Shown: in pieces, positions 2,018 to 58,701 of the stretch
How positions within the stretch are numbered: position 1 is the first letter of the stretch
How the letters are laid out: each line of letters starts with the position of its first letter
From: Lepisosteus oculatus
Lineage: Eukaryota; Chordata; Actinopteri; Semionotiformes; Lepisosteidae
Direction of reading: 5' to 3'
Length of the DNA stretch: 64,000 bases
NCBI RefSeq assembly: GCF_040954835.1
Contig: NC_090707.1
Coordinates: forward strand, 25,996,570 to 26,060,569
Program-made: the position numbers and the translations under genes
Notes under the pieces: generated by a model
Told to the model about the DNA's origin: nothing
Seen by the model: the letters and a program-made list of their open reading frames with translations, nothing else
Database searches by the model: none

Positions 2018-2605
2018 TAATAATAATAATAATAATTGCTTACACTTATATAGCGCTTTTCTGGACACTCCACTCAAAGCGCTTTACAGGTAATGGGGAC
2101 TCCCCTCCACCACCACCAATGTGCAGCATCCACCTGGATGATGCGACGGCAGCCATAGTGCGCCAGAACGCTCACCACACATCAGCTATCAGTGGGGAGG
2201 AGAGCAGAGTAATGTAGCCAATTCATAGAGGGGGATTATTAGGAGGCCATGATGGGGTAAAGGCCAGGGGGGAAATTTGGCCAGGACACCGGGGTTACAC
2301 CCCTACTCTTTTCGAGAAGCGCCCTGGGATTTTTAATGACCACAGAGAGTCAGGACCTCGGTTTTACGTCTCATCCGAAGGACGGCGCCTGTTTACAGTA
2401 TAGTGTCCCCGTCACTATACTGGGGCATTAGGACCCACATGGACCACAGGGTGAGCGCCCCCTGCTGGCCCCACTAACACCTCTTCCAGCAGCAACCTTA
2501 GTTTTTCCCAGGAGGTCTCCCATCCAGGTACTGACCAGGCTCACACCTGCTTAGCTTCAGTGGGTTGCCAGTTGTGAGTTGCAGGGTGATATGGCTGCTG
2601 GGAAC
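2018..2605 (-). mobile_element. 5S-rRNA-derived SINE (SINE3/DeuSINE-like), near full length
   Basis: Read on the minus strand, the head (about 2605-2510) resembles 5S rRNA, including gaagctaagcagg and a relative of the box C region. A central body and a tail with gcgctatataagtg and an (ATT)n run follow. Flanks share a candidate imperfect target duplication (ctctgcct...ttatt near 2000 and 2612). 5S-derived SINEs are transcribed by RNA polymerase III from internal type 1 promoters and moved by LINEs. Other copies lie at 5178, 20996, 45668 and 63428. Confidence 0.8.
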
Positions 2606-3915: not shown

Positions 3916-3976
3916 ATTAAAGGTTTATTCCATGCTGAAAAGAAAAGAAACACAATGTTTTGGCTGTGAGGGCTTC
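3916..3976 (-). repeat. Penelope-like terminal repeat fragment
   Basis: It contains aggtttattccatgctgaaa and a degenerate copy of the hammerhead-like segment, in the reverse orientation to the copy at 7171-7240. It joins directly to antisense L2 sequence on its right. Confidence 0.6.
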
Positions 3977-4378
3977 ACGTAGTGGAAGCAAGCATTGTGG
4001 AGAGAATCTGATGCCGGATGTTGTCAATGTTGAGGCTAAAGAGCTCTAAGAATGTATTGCCAAGTTGGGGTTGGAAGGGTAATGTGGTGGGCCAGTTTGG
4101 CTTTAGCAGTTTATTCATGGTGGAAAACAGGTGTCTAGAATTGTTATGGTTGTTCTCAATGACATGGGAGAAATAGCTTGATCTAGCAGACTCTAGTGCA
4201 TCCTTTTATTCAGTCGAGTGCTCCTTTCAAGACTGAAAATGTATGTTTAGGCCAGAAAGACCTAGTTTGCGGGAAACTGCCTTCATTGAGCGCAGCTGGT
4301 CAGCATACCAGTGGGCACAATGAGTAAAGGAGATGCTCTGAGTTTTAAGAGGAGCTAAGGTGTCAAGAATAGTCAAGA
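3977..4378 (-). mobile_element. L2-type LINE, internal fragment (endonuclease-RT linker)
   Basis: Minus-strand translation gives L2-like linker sequence: TILDTLAPLKTQSISFTHCA, then a KDALESARSSYFS-like stretch and ENNHNNSRHLFSTMNKLL, with occasional breaks. This precedes the reverse-transcriptase core in fish L2 ORFs. The right-hand part (4239-4378) recurs at 14321-14480 as part of a larger duplicated segment. Confidence 0.65.
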
Positions 4379-4774
4379 AAAATATTAAACATTTGTACTT
4401 TGTCCTTTACAGAATCGGAATTCAAAAAGCAGGAAAATGAGGACAGAGCAGAATTTGCAAACATTCATTGGTCAACTGATCACCAGCTGCGAAAATACAC
4501 AGAGCACGAGAGTGAAAAGTGTGAAATAGAAAATTCTAAATCAAAAAGAATAGTTAAGTGGTCAGAATCCAAAAATAATTAATTTCAGATATGCACTAAA
4601 AATGCATTATGTGTGTTGTCGTTGTAGAATCTCTAAGGCTTCAACAAAAACGTAGAACCATTTTTCTGGACATTGTTCAAGTGTGGCAAACCCTGGTCCT
4701 GGAGAGCCACAGTCCAGCAAATATTATACATCATCTTTCCATCATTTTCTAAAGACTCAGAAGATGTTAATATT
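4239..4774 (+). repeat. Duplicated segment, copy 1 (empty site for the L2 at 14484)
   Basis: About 536 bp nearly identical to 14321-15643 once the L2 insertion in that copy is removed. The unit joins an antisense L2 fragment to a novel part with a 57-codon open frame. At 4392-4410 the sequence ttgtactttgtcctttac is uninterrupted, which gives the pre-insertion state of the other copy. Confidence 0.85.
4412..4582 (+). other. Conserved open frame in duplicated segment (possible captured terminal exon)
   Basis: A splice-acceptor-like tract, tttgtcctttacag, precedes an open frame beginning ESEFKKQENEDRAEF and ending with KWSESKNN and TAA. The protein is charged and has no recognised domain. The paralogous frame at 15280-15450 differs by two synonymous changes and one replacement (S to L near the end). 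It might be the last exon of an unidentified gene carried by the duplication, or simply a recently duplicated frame. No ATG lies in frame upstream. Confidence 0.3.
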
Positions 4775-5177: not shown

Positions 5178-5560
5178 ACAGCCAACAGCCATATCACCCT
5201 GCAGCTCTCAACTGGCTACCCACTGAAGCTAAGCAGGGTTGAACCTGGTCATTACCTGGATCAGAGACCTCCTGGGAAGCTATGGTTGCGACTGGAAGTG
5301 GTGTTAGTGGGACCAGCGGGGGGCGCCCACCCTGCGGTCTGTGTGGGTCCTAATGCCCCAGTATAGTGGCAGGGACACTATACTGTAGTGAGTGTTGTCT
5401 TTCGGATGAGACGTTAAACCGAGGTCCTGACTCTCAGTGGTCATTAAAGATCCCCCGGCCATTCCTCGATAAGAGTTGGAAATTATCCTGGTGTCCAGGC
5501 CAAATTTCCCCCCCTTGGCCTTTACTGTGTTCCCCCCCTTGGCCTTTACATAACTAGAGT
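5178..5560 (+). mobile_element. 5S-rRNA-derived SINE, diverged, 3'-truncated
   Basis: The 5S-like head includes gaagctaagcagggttgaac and tacctggatcagagacctcc. The central body (tgccccagtatagtgg, ctttcggatgagacg) follows. The usual tail is missing: after about 5560 the sequence switches to a different SINE tail. Confidence 0.8.
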
Positions 5561-5660: not shown

Positions 5661-6384
5661 AGACTGTATGGTAAATGACAAAACATGACAATGTACAACA
5701 ACAGAGGGGCTAGTCAATTTGCTTTAGCACATTCTCTGTTGCTTATAACAACCTTGACCAGGAGTGGTAAAGGAACTGAAAGCATTCTCATTCAATAACC
5801 CTTTTTACCAAGAGGTTAGTGGAGTTGCCATGAGCACCAGAATGGGACCCAGCTATGCCAATATTTTTGTCGGCTGGATAGAAGAACGCTTCTTCGCTTC
5901 CTACACTGGCTATGTCCCTGACCTCTACAAGTGATACATTGATGACTGCTTCGGTGCCGCCACATGCTCTAACAACCAGCTTGAGTGCTTTCTGCATCAT
6001 TTCACCAACTTCCACGCATCCCTCAAATATACAGTTAACATATCTTCCACTACTCTTCTGTTTCTAGACATCAACTTCTCCATTAACTATCTCCGACTTT
6101 TTACTTCGGTCTATTACAAACCCACGGATTCACACAGCTATCTCCTGTATAGCTCATTTCACCCCAAACACACTAAAAACTCTCTCCCTTTTTCACAGCT
6201 CCTTAGGCTACAACAATTATGCAGCGATGACACAGATTTCCAGAACCAAGCCCTCAAAATGTACTCCTTTTTCACCAACAGAGGATCCCCTAGCAGTGTT
6301 ATTGACAGGGCCCTTGCCTGAGCCAAAAACACCCCTCGGACCCTCAACACAATAAGGAACTCCCACCGTAACAACCGCATTCCT

Positions 6385-6996
6385 TTGGTGCTTCCCTACC
6401 ACCCCAACACACTTCCAATCCCCAGGACTATTAACGACAACTTTTCCATCCTTCAGGATGATCCCTCCATTGGGGCCCTCTTTTCTATCTACCCCATCAT
6501 CTCATATTGCCGACCACCTAATCTGTGTAACCTTCTTGTTCACAGCTCCCTTGACCGCCCTCAGCAACCATCCACACCAGGCACTTTCCCTTGCAACAGA
6601 GCTCGCTGTATCACCTGCAAGTACACATTTACCACCACACTCATTCAAGGCCCCTCAGGACAATTCTGGATTACCCAGATGGCATCTTGTACATCCAGCA
6701 ACCTTATTTACTGTATCTCTTGCAGTAAATGCCCAGCCATCTTCATTGGAGAAACAGGAAGGAGACTCGGAGACCGCTTCAGAAAACACGTCAGGGCTGT
6801 GAAGATTAAAGATCTCTCTAAGCCCATTGTTTCTCATTTCACCACTGATGGCCATGACCACTCTAATCTCTCCGTCTGTGTTCTCAAAGATGGTTTTCCA
6901 AAGTCATACATCAAAAAGACTACAGAAACCAAAATTATCCTGCAGCTAGGATCACACCTTCCCCCTTCTCTTAATGACAGACTACATTTCTTATAA
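6385..6996 (+). pseudogene. GIY-YIG endonuclease part of Penelope-like ORF
   Basis: This is the open C-terminal 203 codons of the element ORF; its ATG is internal to the original reading frame, so the frame is a remnant and not an independent gene. The stretch PRTINDNFSILQDDPSIG is repeated in the second Penelope copy (40664-40870). The endonuclease signature is Y-C-I-S-C, then C-P-A-I-F-I-G-E-T-G-R-R-L. The family uses this nuclease to nick the target for reverse transcription. Upstream RT sequence is in frame only with stops. Confidence 0.75.
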
Positions 6997-7165
6997 ATTC
7001 TCTCTATTCATTGTAGGTTTAATTTCACACTTCTCTACACCTATTCTGACTTCACACCTCCTGATTGGCCTCTCTTTCTGTTCCCTTGCTCCTGCCCCTC
7101 GCTCCTCCTCTATCCCAGCTTTTGTTCTCCTGCTACGTTACCTTTGCTTACTGCCCTCTTTTTCT

Positions 7166-7201
7166 CCCACCTGAAGAAGGCTCCATGGCCGAAACGTTGT
7201 G
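7166..7201 (+). ncRNA. Minimal hammerhead-ribozyme-like motif at Penelope 3' terminus
   Basis: The core reads CTGAAGA (7171-7177), a short stem II (GGCT/GGCC around CCAT, 7179-7190), GAAA (7191-7194), then CGT and a T at the expected cleavage position (7198). Stem I is CAC (7168-7170) with GTG (7199-7201). Stem III is only the palindrome ACGT (7194-7197), which cannot fold on itself but could pair between two molecules. Minimal hammerheads of this architecture, proposed to act as dimers, are known from animal Penelope-like elements. Confidence 0.65.
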
Positions 7202-7299
7202 TTTTCTTTCTTCTCTTTTCAGCATGGAATAAACCTATTACTTGTTCCTTTGCAGCCTACGCATGCTGATGCAGCTACGCACCTGAACTACAGGAGTGT

Positions 7300-8110
7300 T
7301 GAAGACTATGTAAATTGCCCAGAGCCTAGAGGTTTTAAATTCCACGTGGGATGTTGTCGTTGTACCCTTGTGCAAAGACTTTCAATGAATTGCTCCAGTA
7401 TAAAAGGTCTGCTGTATAAAAGGGTCTTAAGGTTTTCATTGTAATTAAGAATTTGTTTTTATTTTACTTGCCTGGTAATAATTAAAATAATACAATATGA
7501 TTAATAGCATTTTGTTAGCAACATAATCTACTGTATGTCTCATTCATCAGTAAAGTAGTAGTAAATAAAACCCAAAACAGCAAAACCAGTGTGATTTGTC
7601 CATCTCCAAGACAATTAAGAAGAAAATCCACAACATAAAATAGCAGTTAAAATTTAGGATTCAAATACCAGCATCCCAGCAAAATAGAAGTGATGGTCAT
7701 CAGGCATCTCTCTATTCAGAGAAATATGGTACAATGATTGGGTGTGTGGAAGTTTTCCCGAATCTACAACTGTGTGCTTTAAGCTATCTCTCCGTGTTTA
7801 AAGGCTGAAGTGTTACAGGGTCTAAGTACACATAGCAGAATTAAATCTCCAGGACCAGAGACATTTTCACAATTGTTCTAAAAAAATGAGGAATGTTATT
7901 TATAAACTATTACTAATATTGTGTTCTTCAATAAAAGGATGAAATTAGGGGGTTTGGAAGGGAGTGGTCAAAGTATAGCTTTGAGACACTATACACCTCA
8001 GTTATATGCAGAGTTGTGCAAAGGTTTCTCAAAATAAAACTGTTTTTTGAACCTCATAACACAATAAAAATTTAACAAAATCTCAAATTGCTGGTGTATT
8101 TAATGAAATG
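7300..8110. other. Non-coding stretch, nothing recognised
   Basis: AT-rich sequence between two Penelope terminal-repeat copies. No exon was supported. Confidence 0.4.
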
Positions 8111-8112
8111 TA

Positions 8113-8235
8113 AAGGTTTATTCCATGCTTAAAAGAGAAGAAAGGAAGCACCACGTTTCGACTCACACACGAAGAAGGCTCCACAGCCGAAACGTGGTGT
8201 TTCCTTTCTTCTCTTTTCAACATGGAATTAACCTT
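8113..8235. repeat. Penelope terminal-repeat hairpin (48-bp arms)
   Basis: The left arm (8113-8160) and right arm (8188-8235) are reverse complements with about four mismatches, separated by 27 bp. The right arm matches the Penelope 3' terminus at 7191-7240. The spacer retains a hammerhead-like stem II (GGCT-CCAC-AGCC) and GAAA, but the CTGA core reads ACGA, so the motif is broken. Confidence 0.8.
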
Positions 8236-8239
8236 GACT

Positions 8240-9392
8240 TGTTCCTTTAAAACCTAGTATAATCTACGTGTATATTTATGAAAGCAGCATCTCTACTTGT
8301 GAACACTACGTGACAGACAAATTCTCGAAAAATTAACAAGTTTGTCATTATGCTTTGTTGCTTTATGATTTAAAAATGGGGAGGGGAGAAAGCGTAGAAG
8401 CTTATGCTTTTTGTTAGACATAATACGTAACCAGAAATAATAATCTAAAAATAACGAATCGGTTGTTTCAAATGCTGAGATTATAAACGCATTTTATGTT
8501 TCTTCACAGTATGAGCTTTCGTGCTTGCCATAGTTTTAAAGGAATCGTACTGTCGTAGGGGTGAGGACATTGTTTCTTAGTAAAGGTCGTCGAGAAACAG
8601 CATATTCAAGGTTTGTTTTTCCAAAGTGTATTTAAAAAACAGTCGTGGTCACTATTTAACACGGTATAAAACAAAGAACAAAACAGTTTATATTTAAAAT
8701 CTGAGTGAACTAAAAATGTACATTAAGTACATTTTGGTTTAATAAAGCGGCTATTGTAAAAGAAATGGTATTTCTTATTTAGTGTAAAATAATTTATAAT
8801 CTTATCATATTCTCATCATTTCTAATAGTATGTTAATGTGTAAATCGTTTTTTGCAAAATATAATTTTAATATTTCTCTGCAAACAGTCCGTACGGGCAT
8901 GAACTGTGCAGAGGTGCTGAAACAGCGATACATAGGAGAATGTTTTAGTTTGCAATTACACCTAGGTCCTGCTTTATTGCTACAGATCAGCTTGCATAAG
9001 AATAGTTTCTTTGTTACAAAAACATATGAAGGAATCGATGCTTTGTTTGAAAATGTCTTAACGGAGTTTTAAAATAATATCCGCCAATATAACTTTAGAA
9101 CACTGATATTACAAAACAATCATCTGTTCTGCTATGAATAATAATTAAGAATAATGTTTTTAAAATGATCAACTTTTAAACTATTGTGTTGCCGGTATTT
9201 TGTATGAATTTGCGGTCTTTTGTCACAATGTTTTTAATGTAAATTGCCTGTAGATTTTAGTCATCGAAGTCCTCTTATAAAAAAAACACCATGGTAGGAT
9301 ATCAATAGTGTATGTTAATTTGGAATACTTAGATGAAATATTTTACTTTTAAGCGGACGGTGGAGTGTAAATAACACTCAATATTTTTTCAG
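8240..9392. other. Upstream region of NDUFB3
   Basis: AT-rich. The first NDUFB3 coding exon starts just after an acceptor (AG at 9391-9392), so an untranslated first exon and promoter should lie in or upstream of this stretch. I could not place the exon. The 80-codon frame at 8830-9072 has no recognisable features. Confidence 0.35.
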
Positions 9393-9394
9393 GC

Positions 9395-9522
9395 ATGGGT
9401 CACGATCATGGACACGGCAAACTGGAAATGCCAGACTACAGACAGTGGAAAGTTGACGGCACCCCCCTGGAAGAGACACAGAAGAGGCTTGCTCAGCTGG
9501 GGCTGAAAGATCCTTGGGCTCG
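9395..9522 (+). CDS. NDUFB3: NDUFB3 coding exon 1
   Basis: Acceptor AG at 9391-9392, exon from 9393 with ATG at 9395, donor gtatgg at 9523. It ends in phase 2 (CG). Confidence 0.93.
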
Positions 9523-10149
9523 GTATGGAATATTTACTTCTTTTCTGGTGTGAATACATTTTTTAACAAAATTTTGTGATCCACATCCACAGCAAAATAG
9601 CTGAGGATAAGCTCCAAACCAGATACAAAGGCAGACTTTCTAATATTTTTGTAATCATTTTGGAAATTGGATACAGAAAGCTTGTTTAATATTGATGCAT
9701 TTCTGGATCGAAACTAGGTTAGCTGCTTTTTAGCAAAATGACCTGTTAATATTGATACTTTTAAGTCTTTTATTTAAGCAGATACAGGTAAGTCCATGGA
9801 CAACAAATCCTCAATTACAATGACAACCTAGAGATTACTTACATACACACCAGAGGACTTACTGACACAATTTGACCAATGTACTTTGATACAAGCACAG
9901 TATCCTGGGATTTTTACCCACCATGTGCCTTCGGTCATTATATGTAAATAACATTAGGATGTGGAGAAGTATACTAATATATTTCAATTTTTCTGTAGAA
10001 ACGAAGCTTGGAGATTCATGGGTGGCTTTGCTAAACCAGTTACCTTCAGAAATGTCCTCTTCAGAGGCTTCAAGTGGGGCTTTGCAGCATTTGTGGTTGC
10101 GCTCGGAGTGGAGTACGCCTTGTTCCCACCCAAGAAAGGACATCATTAA
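9395..10149 (+). CDS. NDUFB3: NADH dehydrogenase [ubiquinone] 1 beta subcomplex subunit 3
   Basis: NDUFB3 is a small accessory subunit of mitochondrial complex I, in the membrane arm at the inner membrane. Coding exons are 9395-9522 and 9999-10149, joined across a CG|A split arginine codon. The 92-residue product begins [20 protein letters not shown], continues through [20 protein letters not shown], and ends with FPPKKGHH. One membrane segment is visible (about [17 protein letters not shown]). Human NDUFB3 is 98 residues, so the length fits. The ATG is preceded by a splice acceptor, so the 5' leader is on an upstream exon. In mammals CFLAR follows NDUFB3, as here. All family hallmarks are present and the frame is intact. 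Confidence 0.96.
9999..10149 (+). CDS. NDUFB3: NDUFB3 coding exon 2 (terminal)
   Basis: Acceptor tttttctgtag, then A completing the arginine codon. It encodes [13 protein letters not shown] through GHH and TAA at 10147-10149. Confidence 0.95.
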
Positions 10150-10384: not shown

Positions 10385-12545
10385 CTACAAATTTAAACAT
10401 ACCACATCTAATTTTATGATTTACATGGTAAGTGAATTCTTAAACAACCTTTGAGATTTCATGTTGAATATGGTGTAAGACAGGTGCTCGATTATTTGTA
10501 AGTGTTGTTAAGGGAAGATCTGTTGCCAATGATCTGGATTCTGGTATAGTTAGCCAGCTGGTCAAGTTATTATTTTCTCAAATAAATTATTATATAAAAA
10601 GAGGAGTAGCAAACATTTGAAAGGCTGCACAGGAAGCTAAAAAAAATAGAAAGAAGTCTAGGAAAACACCCAATATTTAATATAGATAAGTACAGGCTGT
10701 TACAGGGCTCTGCCATTACCAGAACAAGGAAATACTGTTCTACACAAATGTTGAGACAGTAATATAAAAGTAGACAGGCTTTCTTTCCAGAAACAGATGG
10801 TTGTGAATGTAAGAACATCGTGTTTGTGAGAAGAGGCAATTCAATCCACCTAACTCATTTGGATTCTAGAGGCTAATTGATCAAGGATCTCATCCCACTG
10901 TAAAGGGTTTTGACTTCAACAACATGGCTGGATAGCTTATTCTAGATGCAACCCTTTGTGTCAGAAAGTACATACTGTTTTCAATTTAAAGTTTCCCTTG
11001 TATGTGCACATCCTTGTAGATTCCATCTGTGTACTCCTATTCTTGCTTCACTGTTGATTATAAAACCTTAAAAAATACTTTGTGTTCCCTCTTAGTATTA
11101 TCAGTTCAAAACTGAAAACATTTTTTGGTAAGATATACATCTGAATTATCTTGAAACAAATTATGTAGATGTGCTGAATGGCTTCCTCTCATATACAAAT
11201 TGGTCTTTTATCGTGAATGGTTATGTAACAACAGTTATAGATTTCATATAACAATTGGACAAAAGATTGATGCTGCAATTTATCAGATTATTATTTAAGC
11301 AAATATATGAGCAAAATGTACTACTTTGCAACACCATCACTGATTCTAATCTCCACCTTTGACTACAACGAGTGACTTTTTGAAGTTACAAAGACCCCTC
11401 CTTCCTCCTTTTATAATTTAGCATCATCAATGTCTGCTCTCAAACATTTCAATTTTGGACACGAGAGGCTGGGTTAGGTCTCCACCTTCAAATCTCTGGT
11501 CTGCTTCTCTCATACAAAATAGTGCTGTCTCTCTAGAAATAGGGAATTAACTGTCCATAGTGAACAAGTACAATATTCCAATTTGATCACAAGTGATGGC
11601 AAGTGGGAACTGAAGTAGTTTGGACTGGTACAGCGTGGATTCTGCTACTTGATTCTTGTGAGTGTACCTTTCTTAAGCATAACTTATATGCTCTTCATGC
11701 AGCTACATCTAACTTGAAAGTTGTAAATGAAATACTTGTACTGGGATCCTTTTCTTTCCATTAGGTGGTGCTACTCACCACCATATTTCCCAAGACATGC
11801 CTTTTCTGCTGTTTAATTAAAGGCTTATATTGTGTGTCTATCTCTTATGATCATATACACACTTGTCGATTACATTCACAACCACTTCTTAAAGGTTTCT
11901 TTACATTACTGAAAGGTAAGAAATCCATATTTTTATGTTTGTTTGTTTTCCCTACAGTTTTTTCATTGTCCTAGGTAAATCACATCTCCTGATTTAAAAA
12001 CAATCATTAGTATACACATGAATATACATAAAGTACATGTGAGAAATGAATCTGTAATTTTATGGGTGGTCCAAAGGCTAAAGATCCAAAGTAGCTTTCA
12101 GGTTGGCAGTTGGAAAATAATTGCCATGGGTAAAGATAGTATAGTGACCCAAACAGCAGGATACTTGCAGACTATCTGGCCACCTATTAGCTTAAGGGGA
12201 ACCACAACAGGTTCTTGACTCCCAGAACCAACAGTGCACCCACAGACCTGACAAGACAGTTACCCTATCTAATGTCCCTTTATTATATTCTATTAAACTA
12301 GCAGTTATAGTATTGAGCATCACTGCTGACATGACAATTTTTATTCTTACGTCATAAGAATGCACAAGGGGAACACACCATAACACACAAACCCTTGTGA
12401 ACCACAGTTACCCAAAGCCAAATGTCCCAAATGAGAAGTCCAGCATCACTGTTCTCCGAAACAGCCCCAGTGACCTCCTCCATTTTGTTGCGGAGAGGAA
12501 ACTTTGTGCAGTCTTTCAATGGTATTGGGAATCCTCTTTAGTCCA
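10385..12545. other. Intergenic, possible degenerate repeats only
   Basis: No exon was supported. The stretch around 10840-11050 (tgacttcaacaacatggctg) has the look of an old dispersed repeat, but I cannot assign it. Confidence 0.35.
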
Positions 12546-12687
12546 GGAACAAGTAATAGGTTTATTCCATGCTGAAGAGAGAAGAACAAAAACACAACAT
12601 TTCGGCTGTGGAGCCTTCCTCGCGTGTGAGCCAAAATGTTGTGTTTCCTTTCTTCTCTTTTCAGCGTGGAATAAACCTATTGTTCCT
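12546..12687. repeat. Penelope terminal-repeat hairpin
   Basis: The left arm (12546-12603) and right arm (12631-12687) are near reverse complements carrying ggtttattccatgctgaa and its complement. Right-hand flanking sequence cctttgcagcctacgcatgc matches the Penelope 3' end near 7250. On the minus strand the middle holds a degenerate hammerhead-like core. Confidence 0.75.
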
Positions 12688-12739
12688 TTGCAGCCTACGC
12701 ATGCTGACGCAGATGCCCACCTGAACCTCTTTAATCCAG

Positions 12740-14260
12740 GGTGTCATGAACAAAGTGGTCCTTATGCCACCCCCACCCTAATTTCTCTAAGTCCATTATC
12801 GAGTAGGGAGAATGATAGTGATGCCTGAGGCTTCCTCTTCTGCTATCTGTAGTTCTTCTCTGTCAGTTCTCTGCTTGAGTCTTTCTGACAAGGGGTTATA
12901 AAACTCCCTTCCTGGACATCGCTCAGGGCTTACTGTGAGGTATGGGTGGGGTTCTTGTGATATCTAGGGTCAAGGCAGAGCCAACAGCTTGGGGCTAATT
13001 AACAAACTGACTGTATGCAGATAGCCAAATGTCATGGAGCTCTGTCTTTTGTTTTTTTCCTGCCCCCTTGGCTGTCAGAGTCTCCATGTAACCATGCACT
13101 CGCCTACACATTACAACACGCACTGTTCACTGCAATTAATCTATTATCCAATCACTTTTCCCCTTTTCACTGGACTTAAACCTTTCTACTGCACCTTTCC
13201 ATGCTCACTATTGAGTTCTACTCGCTTGAGCTAAATCTTCCTTGCCGCTTGTTTATCTCACCTCTTCAGATTACGGATTTTGCCTTCCTAACGACTATGG
13301 ACCTGCCTTACGGATCCAATCTTGGTTACTTGATACTACTCTTTGCATTATGGATCTTGGCCCTCCTACTGACCACGGACCTGCCTAATGATTTGGACTT
13401 CAGTTAAAGAACACTTTCTCTCTCTTGACCCCTTACACCAACCCCGCACAGGGTCCTAATTTTCCACCTACTGGTCCTTGACATCAGCCCCTGGTCCAGT
13501 CTGCAGTGGCTCAGTACCACAACATACTTCAACATGCTAACCCCTATTGTGCGGTGATTGAGTGGCATCTGAGAAAACTGTCCTTCAATCTTTGCTAACT
13601 AGCACCTGGCTTATTTTTTTGTGTTTGAACACTTTGATTAGAGTGAGGATACACTGGCCACTGTATGCCACCTAAAGTCAGTCTAGTTCCTGACATCTTT
13701 GGTTTTGTCATAATCATAAACGTTTATTTATAATTAACGTTTATATAACTGACAGCTTTTAATTCAAAATTTAATTTTTACTTGGATACAACAAACCACT
13801 AGATTTATTAAGACTAGCAAAACTAAATATGGTATGTTTGTTTTTTCTTTTAGATTTTTGAAAATATGTGCCAATTATATTGGTTCATGGGCTTAATAGG
13901 TACATTTACCCTAACAGTTTTTTTGCATATACATTTTACACAACTTAAAATGCTCCATTCAAGCAATTTGTTGGTATAAAGATTCATTTAAGTAAAGAGC
14001 TAAGCTGTAATGAGAAACTAGCAGGTGTGTGGATCCACAAGATCAGAATTGGTTCCCCAGAATTATATCCACATAGCACACTTGAGAAGCATTTTGGGAC
14101 AGATAGTTACCTGCTCAGCTGTAAAACAGGATGTGACAGATGTTTCTCTTACTGGACAGAAGTGTTCTTCTGTAGCAGGGTGAAGCAGCTGACTTCAGCC
14201 AACAATTCATTCTTGCCCTATAATACACCATTCTCAAAACACTTTAGAAACATGCTGACT
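12740..14260. other. Intergenic, unassigned
   Basis: Frames at 13034-13407 and 14027-14293 lack recognisable domains. The block 13200-13450, with repeated gacctgcct motifs, may be an unidentified repeat. Confidence 0.3.
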
Positions 14261-15450: not shown

Positions 15451-15910
15451 TTTCAGATATGCACTCAAAAATGCATTATGTGTGTTGTCATTGTAGAATC
15501 TCTAAGGCTTCAATGAAAATGTAGAAGCATTTTCCTGGACATTGTTCAAGTGTGGCAAACCCTGGTCCTGGAGAGCCACAGTCCAGCAATTATTATACAT
15601 CATCTTTCCATCATTTTCTAAAGACTCAGAAGATTTTAATATTGATTAATTCAACATGTTTATCGATTCCATTTATATCGGTTGGTTAACTCTTATGTGC
15701 ACATTTCAAGAATTTAAGCAAGGATCGTCCATCAACAGTCATGGAGCGTGTTGCTGTATTAATTTCAAGTGCTCTCCACACTAACTAAACAATTCATCTG
15801 CTGAAGTGAAAACTATTATTTTAAGAGTTCAGAAATGAATTTGACCCATTACCCGGTACCCTTTTGCTGCTTTCAAATGCTATACTGTAGTGTTTTATTT
15901 ATTATCTCAG

Positions 15911-21036: not shown

Positions 21037-24000
21037 TGCATACACTTATATAGCGCTTTACAGGTAATGGGGATCCCCTCCACCACCACCAATGTTCAGC
21101 ATCCACCTTGTATTAGTATACAATTAGTATATCATCCTAATTTTGGCTATGGGTAACTGCGACAGTGAATATCCAGCCAAGAGACAAACATATATTTCTT
21201 AAAAATAAACTTGTTTTTTCTTAAAGAGACACAGAGGTCAGGAGAGCAGTGCGAGGTGAACATGAAGGAAAGCTAAGGATCAGTACAGGAGAAAAAAAGA
21301 CAATAATATGGCAATAGGCATTGCAGGGTATGAAATCCTTGGCTAATATATGTCAGAAAGGTAATGGTAATACCATTCCTTGTGTTAAATGGGATGGATG
21401 TGCAACAAATGTCAAATTCTTTAAACGTGTTTTATAGCCGTTTTGATTAAAAGCCCACACCCTCTTCAGCTAACACTTCTTATCTCCCAGAATCCAGAGA
21501 GTTTATAAAAACTGATACAGCAGAGATGTGTAGGCAGTTTAGGAGAATTAGTGTAAGGAAACGTGCATGTCGAGATAATGTGTGAGGAAGAATTCTGCAA
21601 TCATGTGCAGATCAGTTATGTGATAATAAATAGTGAAGCAACACAACACAAAGAACACACAGAATCTTACTTGCAGCAGGAGAGAGTAGACAATCCAATG
21701 CTCAGTTTGTTAATTTGGTTGGTTTATCAGCAAAGACATTTGTAAGGATCTTATTTGTTGATTTTATCTCTACTTTTAATATAATACAATCATGTTGCTT
21801 GCACAGAAACTCTTGAAGAACTTTTAACAGTAACGTGATAAAATGGGTCTAAGACCTCTTAACAAACAGGTCCCAACAGGTCAGATTGGAGAAATGGTTA
21901 TCTGACATTCCCTACACTTCCACAGGATCACCACCAGCATGTGTCTTGTCCCCCCTACTGTAAATATTTTACACTAATGATTGTAAGAGCAAACACACAG
22001 ATAGATATGTCATTGAGTTTGCTGATGACATATCCCTGGTCAAAATATAAAAATACCCAGAAAAGCATCATGGTCCCATTTTTGGGTCCCATGGTGCCAT
22101 TCCAAATGATTTTACTGGAGTTCTCTTTCACGATTGAAAACAAAGGAACTTCTTTGATTTTAGGAAAAATGTAACCAACCTACTGTAATTAATGGTCAGA
22201 CTGTAGAAATTGTAGAAATTGTCTGTGACTACGAGTACTTGGGACTGGTCATAGACAAAATGATGGGACAAATGTTGTGACGCCATTTATAAAACTTTTT
22301 TTTCTTAGGAAACTCAGCTATTTCAAAGTAGATATAACTATTTTAGGAGTTTTCTATAAGTAGTTTATTGAAAGTGAACAGTGTGCCACTCTCTATCAGT
22401 GTCTGATGCTTAGTGCCTGATTCACGTATTTATAATATCAGGGCTTGATTTCTGCACTCCTTACTCTCTGGGCCCTCAGACACTCTTCTTAATATGTTGC
22501 AAAACTCTGCAGCTAGACTTTGTTCACTCCAGACATTGGCAGCATATCACTTCTAATAAAGCTTGAAAAGGGATAGAGACTGTTGCTACATTCAAATCTT
22601 AAAGAGTGGGATAAATCAGAGCAGTCAGATCTATTCTGGAAAAGTTGACAAGCAGATTATTCAAGACCACTGTATTGTCCCCTAACTGTTACTATTGTCT
22701 TGTAAAGATTGGGAAAATAATGAAACCTTGACTTCAGATCTTTGCTTAACATCCGTGTACAATTTCACTTATGTACCAGGTAAAAGGATATATACTGGTT
22801 GAAGAATATGAGTTCCTGGTCAACTAATTCAGTATGACAGAGGGTGTTTATATATGTTTAGCTGCATCTAGGTCTTGCCCAAGACTGTGTTAATGTGAAA
22901 CCCATGCTTTAGCCAAGTGTCATCATGAAGTTTGAAATTAAAGTGGGTTTACTTATAGGTAAGATCTGTTTGGGGAAAAAAATACCTAGACTTCTTTAAA
23001 TAAATGCTAAATAAATACACATGTACATGTATTCAAGGAAGTTTAATGCATGCTGTTTATTTGTATTTGTATTTATTTTTAATGGGCCTTTTTGAGGAAT
23101 GATAGAAATTCATACTGGTCATATCTCAGTCAGACATATTTTGACAGTTTCCAAAATCTGTCGTTTAGTCCATAAATAATTAATAATTATGTGTGCAAAG
23201 TGTATAAAAGTTCAAGTTTGTCAGTCCAACCATATACAAGTATACAGAGGAGTGAGATATCCTTCTCCAGGTCTACAGTGCGAATACAGACAGACACTGA
23301 TAAGACAATGCTATAGACAATGTAGACATAGACATTTCTGACAGGGTTCATGGTACATAAAGTGCAATGTACATAGTGCATTTTACTTTACAGGATTGTG
23401 CAAAGAATACTTTAGACAGTATGCCTGATATTAGGCAAAAAAGAACTAGGTTTCCAGATTTGGAGTAGGTGCAGTAGGTACCAGGGTGTTGTGAGCCTGA
23501 CAGCCTATGAAAAAAGGTGTTGGAGCTGGCCCGTATACTGTGATACCTTTTACCAGATGGTAGGAGGGCAAAGAGGTAGCAGGAGGGGTGGGAGGGATCT
23601 TCCACAATACTGGAGGCATGTGTGTAGCATTTGTGGTAGATGTCCTGAATGGACGGAAGGGATGCTCCAGTGATGTTTTCTGCTGTATTGCTAATTCATT
23701 GCAGGGAGTTGCACTTGGAGACGTTGTTGTGCTTTTTTAGCTAGGGAGGTGGTGTTGATGGTCCAAGTGAGGTCATCTGTGATATGCACACCAAGAAACT
23801 TAGTACTTCTAGCTGTCTCCACAGGGGAGCTGTTGATGTGCAGTGGAGAGTGATCAGCGTGGCCCCTCCTGAAGTCAATTATCATCTCTTTTGTCTTATT
23901 GACATTCAGAGACAGATTGTTGTTGAAACACCAGTCCGCTAGTTGCTCCACCTCCTCTGTGTGGTGCATAATCATTGTTACTAATGAGGCCCACCACTGT

Positions 24001-58205: not shown

Positions 58206-58341
58206 TAGGCTAGAGGGAAGACCATTAACTGGTGACCAATACCACTTAACAGCAGTAAATAGTCTTTTAGACAGACCAGAGGTTTATGTAATAAATCACA
58301 ACAATGAGTAGAGAGCTGCGTCATCATGCGTAGGCTGCAAA

Positions 58342-58456
58342 GGAACAGGTAAAGGTTAATTCCTTGCTGAAAGGTAAAGAAAATAAACTGTCTTTTGCTG
58401 TGGAGCTTTCTTGAGGTGTGATACCTTTCAGCATGGAGTAAACATTTACCTTTTCC
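58342..58456. repeat. Penelope terminal-repeat hairpin, old
   Basis: 34-bp arms (58342-58375 and 58423-58456) are near reverse complements; the outer flank gcgtaggctgcaaaggaaca matches the complement of the Penelope 3' end at about 7240-7265. Confidence 0.65.
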
Positions 58457-58701
58457 TTTGCAAATCGGAACTAGAATATTTTAAATACTTTTTCATCTTA
58501 AAGACTGTCTGAGACTGTCAGTGGCCATACTTTCATTAGCTTCTTGACTATATCGGTTTGTGAGTTCCCTTGCCTGTGGGGTTAACAAGCAGAAGAAGTA
58601 GGAAATATATCAAGGGCGTCTTCACACACAGTTCAGGAAAACAGTTCACATTGCTTTCATGTAGAATTCCTAATCCATTCTTTACAACCATTTTAATACT
58701 C

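Follow-up and report, generated by a model that had tools for sequence, protein, structure and literature searches.

A minimal hammerhead-like motif in the pseudo-LTR of an abundant Penelope-like family of Lepisosteus oculatus, with clustering of sampled copies' 5' ends at its first stem

Minimal type I hammerheads of Penelope-like elements were reportedly described by Cervera & de la Pena in 2014 and by Lunse, Weinberg & Breaker in 2017. As presented in later accounts, these hammerheads keep the order of the core, have a very short or absent, palindromic helix III, and lie in the pseudo-LTRs of elements whose tandem copies may allow them to act as dimers (PMC7761336, PMC6155905, PMC6466107; also PMC7229834). 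A review describes the role of the hammerhead in Penelope elements as unknown (PMC7761336). In PAc, the Poseidon element of Anolis carolinensis, the hammerhead is described as lying at the junction of pseudo-LTR and ORF, and as having only stems I and II; stem II is where the ORF begins, and cleavage was shown, 26 nt downstream of the start codon (PMC11167929). According to the same account, cutting is assisted by the element's protein and was not seen without it, the hammerhead is dispensable for insertion, reverse transcription begins inside the RNA with uncut RNA as the main template in vitro, and the enzyme cuts and extends both strands (PMC11167929). For bdelloid Penelope elements, inverted pseudo-LTRs, palindromic junctions and short target-site duplications are described, and self-priming is favoured (PMC3846280). 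The plus-strand hammerhead of CChMVd, a viroid, is described as carrying an additional A, A10, between A9 and G10.1; the natural A10 moderately decreases the trans-cleaving rate, and C or G at that place decreases it strongly (PMC3705267). The RNA of a plant retrozyme is reported to start upstream of its hammerhead cut (PMC12029980).

We examined a minimal hammerhead-like motif at 7168-7201 on the plus strand of a 64,000-nt stretch of Lepisosteus oculatus DNA (the whole stretch analysed, hereafter the window), and followed it by checking its letters, by a descriptor scan and through family copies. Read 5' to 3', it consists of CAC (7168-7170), the core CTGAAGA (7171-7177), an A (7178), GGCT (7179-7182), a CCAT loop, GGCC (7187-7190), GAA (7191-7193; G12A13A14), the palindrome ACGT (7194-7197), T7198 as residue 17, and GTG (7199-7201). 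CAC pairs with GTG in a stem I of 3 bp and GGCT with GGCC in a stem II of 4, giving 3 + 4 pairs; the family form, which has CACGG where the window reads CATGG, has 4 + 4. The CUGANGA ... GAA core is present, with A15.1-U16.1 and H at position 17; helix III is reduced to the palindrome, and the cut is predicted to fall after 7198. A sequence-only reading of this DNA had recognised the core, stem II, GAA, the CAC/GTG stem I and the ACGT stem III, all of which we confirmed, but had overlooked A7178 (plus strand), which lies between A9 and 10.1, where the canonical CUGANGA-stem II-GAA layout has no base. Since the CChMVd plus-strand hammerhead has the identical insertion (PMC3705267), a gap-free junction between A9 and stem II is not strictly defining; the likeness to this viroid, which is not a retrotransposon, concerns the extra A. 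The extra A may also distinguish the gar family from the minimal type I Penelope hammerheads.

Using a descriptor composed only after the motif had been seen, and allowing 0 or 1 extra base, we recovered from the window the motif and one other site, on the minus strand. One hundred Markov control sequences contained on average 0.36 sites of all forms and 0.01 of the form with a 4-nt stem III. The Rfam hammerhead families, proposed earlier as a check, gave no match at the gathering score in the whole window, and none at E up to 10 within 6900-8400. We regard this as neutral, because for a motif that lacks a closed stem III a match would hardly be expected. Fifteen other Rfam matches within 6900-8400, mostly microRNA families on the palindrome at 8110-8238 and all below the gathering score, were set aside. 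Choice of the descriptor after the fact and the missing Rfam match would both suit a chance resemblance within a repeat; with 0.01 sites expected per 64 kb, a location in a Penelope pseudo-LTR as in the known cases, and presence across the family (see below), we consider such a coincidence very improbable. Beyond the host, pattern and protein scans of viral contigs returned 0, 1, 0 and 19 places and no lead to follow, none of the 19 having more than three stem II pairs; a scan of prokaryote genomes returned 0 places, plasmids gave three short matches only (E 1 to 5), and solved structures gave one unrelated match (E 0.92).

The motif lies inside the 3' pseudo-LTR (6997-7288, plus strand) of a 5'-truncated, stop-containing Penelope-like element. 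This pseudo-LTR ends near CACCTGAAC (7280-7288), a marker that begins 109 nt after the motif start, and over most of 7100-7300 it is 92-100% identical to the 40 genome matches that were scored, the window itself included. Positions 5935-6996 (plus strand) hold the C-terminal part of the ORF, in which an RT block with YIDD, assigned by eye, is followed by a GIY-YIG-like endonuclease domain (Pfam GIY-YIG, E 0.0087, below its cut-off); the RT block has an in-frame stop at 6319-6321. An RT with YIDD and GIY-YIG in one ORF, together with pseudo-LTRs, identify the element as Penelope-like, the RT again by eye. Just downstream of the motif on the plus strand are a splice-acceptor-like pyrimidine tract ending in CAG (7202-7222) and an AATAAA (7228-7233), both with putative functions. 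The window copy has a single direct motif. Its truncation, that single motif, the stops in its ORF and its 3-bp stem I suggest that it is probably inactive.

Four further pseudo-LTR pieces are present in the window, and by eye none (0/4) has a complete core. At 3918-3990 (minus strand) is a fragment of the same pseudo-LTR with a decayed motif. The other three are head-to-head, palindromic insertions: one at 8110-8238 (plus strand); one at 12545-12726 (minus strand, ends approximate) with a degenerate motif copy, flanked by a 15-bp direct repeat (12533-12547 and 12726-12740, one mismatch); and a diverged one at 58314-58462 (minus strand) with the changed core CTCAAGA...GCAAAAG. Inverted pseudo-LTRs, palindromic junctions and short target-site duplications are shared with the bdelloid elements. 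The copy at 8113-8235 had been put forward as a relative of the motif. The similarity is real (88% over 73 nt at 8162-8234), but the core reads ACGAAGA, with C3 and U4 lost, and we rejected it as a functional relative. A copy at position 923 of locus L052 and the piece at 58314-58462 both bear the motif next to another downstream stretch (TTTTCCTTTCAGC... and TTTACCTTTCAGC...), and perhaps represent other Penelope subfamilies.

We then consider the host genome (1.2 Gb, 813 contigs). The family form occurs exactly at 4,712 places and with up to 3 mismatches at 15,517 (reversed control, 0), and the 27-nt stretch downstream of the motif, also with up to 3 mismatches, at 23,568 (control, 0). A search with the endonuclease part (6322-6993) gave 7,310 candidates. 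The 150 that were scored are, the window itself aside, 90-92% identical to the window, and open frames among them run, stop to stop, for up to 1,028 aa. In 30 loci chosen by ORF, the window copy included, the motif was found every time (30/30, up to 5 mismatches), about 175 nt past the ORF end; 24 motifs are exact, and 27 have the complete 11-base core with A15.1-U16.1 and H17. Because these copies are young, we read this as regular presence in ORF-linked loci and not as selection. The motif is a regular part of the element across its genomic copies, in agreement with the suggested match to the minimal, possibly dimeric hammerheads of animal Penelope elements. Hammerhead-like motifs of this minimal form, whose stem III is palindromic and lacks a loop, have been published from Penelope-like termini, and we conclude that the gar motif is a further member of that kind.

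Direct tandem copies of the pseudo-LTR occur in the family (one tandem was checked for both motifs), and not at the window copy. The tandem L076/L077 contains two identical motifs at a distance of 3,037 bp, and the 300 nt around them are identical as well; by eye, at least five same-strand ORF pairs spaced 3,036-3,038 bp are present among the 150 matches listed. Since the two motifs are identical and 3,037 bp apart, an RNA with two hammerheads is possible at this tandem; it is not at the truncated window copy. With PAc the gar family shares a hammerhead at the border of pseudo-LTR and ORF that has only stems I and II, and probably also an internal start of reverse transcription and a template left uncut. 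In L076 no stop interrupts the reading frame across the hammerhead, which precedes the first in-frame ATG, seen about 150 nt after the motif start; this differs from PAc, where the ORF begins at stem II. A further difference is that the gar cut is predicted from sequence, whereas cleavage of PAc was demonstrated. The surrounding region, L075-L077 (G000:C1:47257555-47265394), combines head-to-head and tandem Penelope units, with exact motifs at a spacing of about 3,037 bp. A separate array of same-strand exact motifs, mostly about 6.44 kb apart (G000:C1:6509724-6566275), is probably a larger duplicated unit containing a pseudo-LTR.

Sequence comparison of copies addresses a claim that a stem II change between the motif and its relative preserves pairing (U-G to U-A). 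We compared 52 different 36-mers, all ungapped, taken from the window and some of the loci. The pairs of stem II are intact in 49-52 of them and those of stem I in 39-48. At the pair in question there are 34 U-G, 17 U-A and 1 C-G, a one-sided change; a single double change, not convincing as compensation, was seen at one pair in one decayed copy, and the other changes are almost all one-sided. Most sampled copies read CACGG at the site that is CATGG in the window and CACAG in the 8162 relative. As decay of an ancestral CACGG would yield both forms, the change is better read as CpG decay, and the claim of stem II covariation fails. Exact motifs are present at the expected place for 43 of the first 100 exact places of the 27-nt tail. 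For 43 of the remaining 57 places, contained in 40 regions, together with one exact neighbour (in L149), we obtained 44 distinct tail-chosen copies, 31 of which reach C3 and 13 of which, the exact neighbour included, keep the complete core. Among the 31 copies that reach C3, 40 of 67 substitutions fall on 6 CpG positions out of 31.

Predicted folding energies reveal strong competitors of the hammerhead. Taken alone, the 34-nt window motif is most stable with stems I and II formed (-5.5 kcal/mol); embedded in 50 nt (7161-7210), it adopts a different fold, and the minimum of the family-form monomer (-7.7 kcal/mol) is another fold. With two strands, the double hammerhead has -9.3 kcal/mol versus a minimum of -14.9 for the window copy, and -12.9 versus -17.8 for the family form, placing it 4.9-5.6 kcal/mol above the two-strand minimum. 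This competition, the extra A and the weak stems would be natural in a hammerhead fossil at the level of the whole family, copied as part of the pseudo-LTR beside the RNA start and not cutting even in intact tandems; the changed cores of head-to-head copies in the window fit as well, as does the scarcity of copies that start at the cut site (2/44 within 2 nt). Such a fossil is nonetheless unlikely in our view. Between 7 window-like pseudo-LTRs (window included) and 9 young ones, the 35-nt motif has 0 fixed differences, against 15 of 168 columns upstream; downstream, 10 of 104 columns differ, 7 of which we read as lying beyond the element end. The identical extra A occurs in a viroid hammerhead that is described as cutting (PMC3705267). 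The full core in 27 of 30 ORF-linked copies speaks against a fossil too, weakly, as the copies are young.

We examined where genomic copies end at their 5' side, in a sample from contig C1 only that comprises 30 loci and 40 regions chosen from 100 listed exact-motif places, and that left out several array copies and places beyond 14.3 Mb. Removal of identical flanks reduced 79 exact-motif occurrences to 57, which were aligned with tolerance for mismatches. Forty-six of the 57 keep 1-11 nt before C3, and 26 keep 3-5 nt, with a mode of 4, at ACAC (n = 14); 3 keep 12-21 nt, and 8 continue for 59 nt or more. Exceptions are L139, which keeps 21 nt, L043 and L124, which score 12 and 14, and an inexact copy in L051, which keeps about 26 nt. 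The 44 tail-chosen copies gave a similar picture: 21 stop 1-11 nt before C3, 0 stop at 12-32, 10 continue for 33 nt or more, 8 end within the motif and 5 beyond the cut. With only the two junctions already mentioned within 2 nt of the cleavage site, we rejected the idea that most copies start there. By a string filter, 30 of 49 stopped copies are flanked by inverted pseudo-LTR sequence; of the remaining 19, at least two look inverted by eye, and 14 end at 3-5 nt. Every head-to-head pair of neighbours has the minus copy before the plus copy: 70 of the listed exact-motif places include 7 such pairs, separated by 39-50 bp, and the 100 tail places include 10, separated by 111-150 bp.

The 5' ends of sampled copies concentrate at ACAC, the first bases of stem I. 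This is a new observation in that our literature search found no report placing the 5' ends of Penelope insertions at the first base of the hammerhead, although such a report may exist elsewhere. A template RNA that ends at the first base of stem I explains the clustering. Because the ends cluster around ACAC and rarely at the cleavage site, an uncut RNA that begins with the hammerhead was probably reverse transcribed; a cut template is disfavoured, as it would give ends at GTGT, which are seen rarely. If the folded ribozyme blocked the enzyme, stops would be expected at the 3' side of the motif, where the enzyme arrives first, unlike the ends observed. The tendency of gar arms to end near the same base also differs from the bdelloid elements, for which self-priming is favoured (PMC3846280).

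Something other than transcription initiation could also produce the shared end. Alternatively, the motif could be mainly a DNA or RNA start element made up of an initiator (CTCACACC) and a downstream core promoter or protein-binding site, its hammerhead likeness being secondary. The initiator consensus is YYANWYY. Clustering of 5' ends at CTC|ACACC fits an initiator, and, being 32 nt upstream of where the cut is predicted, these ends are not a ribozyme product. Against this reading, eleven core bases, two stems, H17 and the palindrome all stand in hammerhead order, and minimal hammerheads are described at the equivalent place in other Penelope elements (PMC11167929, PMC7761336); we judge a motif that is mainly a start element to be distinctly unlikely.

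We think it likely that 7168-7201 is a decayed minimal, stem-III-less hammerhead of an abundant Penelope-like family, possibly dimeric in tandem RNA, situated near the RNA 5' end, whose template is copied uncut. In tandem elements the motif recurs once per unit of about 3,037 bp (one tandem), so that a two-unit RNA would carry two motifs. Their ACGU palindromes could pair and complete two hammerheads that would cut after U17; completion would require a pair of motifs, either within one tandem RNA or on separate RNAs, and the element's protein may assist cutting, as in the anole element. RNA would most likely start at, or a few bases from, the first base of stem I (5'-ACACCUGAAG). If it does, the hammerhead is the transcript's 5' terminus, and a leader of about 32 nt would be lost on cutting. 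Since genomic copies tend to end at the uncut 5' base, the uncut RNA is the probable template of reverse transcription, and cutting would therefore serve another step; candidates are splitting of tandem transcripts, removal of a cap, and production of linear or circular RNA. Head-to-head copies might form if both sides of a break were extended as far as the RNA 5' end and the products then joined, with both-strand copying of the kind described for the anole enzyme as a conceivable source. More tentatively, and with rather more doubt than confidence, we propose the specific combination in which RNA starts at the first base of stem I, uncut RNA is the template, and reverse transcription from both sides joins 5' ends head to head. 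If so, RNA 5' ends should lie at ACACCTGAAG, and the ribozyme would not generate transposition templates but would serve as a 5' leader that can be removed, switching the RNA between a capped messenger and an uncapped genomic form that can be ligated. With its thousands of copies, of which many are young and some tandem, the genome preserves a natural record of RNA ends. The part sampled here speaks for an RNA that has the hammerhead at its start and is copied without being cut, and so makes the role of the ribozyme directly testable.

Two other features of the window are recorded here. Positions 2484-2602 (minus strand) and 5182-5387 are 5S rRNA-like (Rfam, 56.9 bits), with an inverted, 88-90% similar copy nearby, which suggests a putative 5S-derived SINE. 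At about 9395-9525 (plus strand), an exon-like stretch that points to a vertebrate host reads, by eye, as what we take to be the start of an NDUFB3-like protein.
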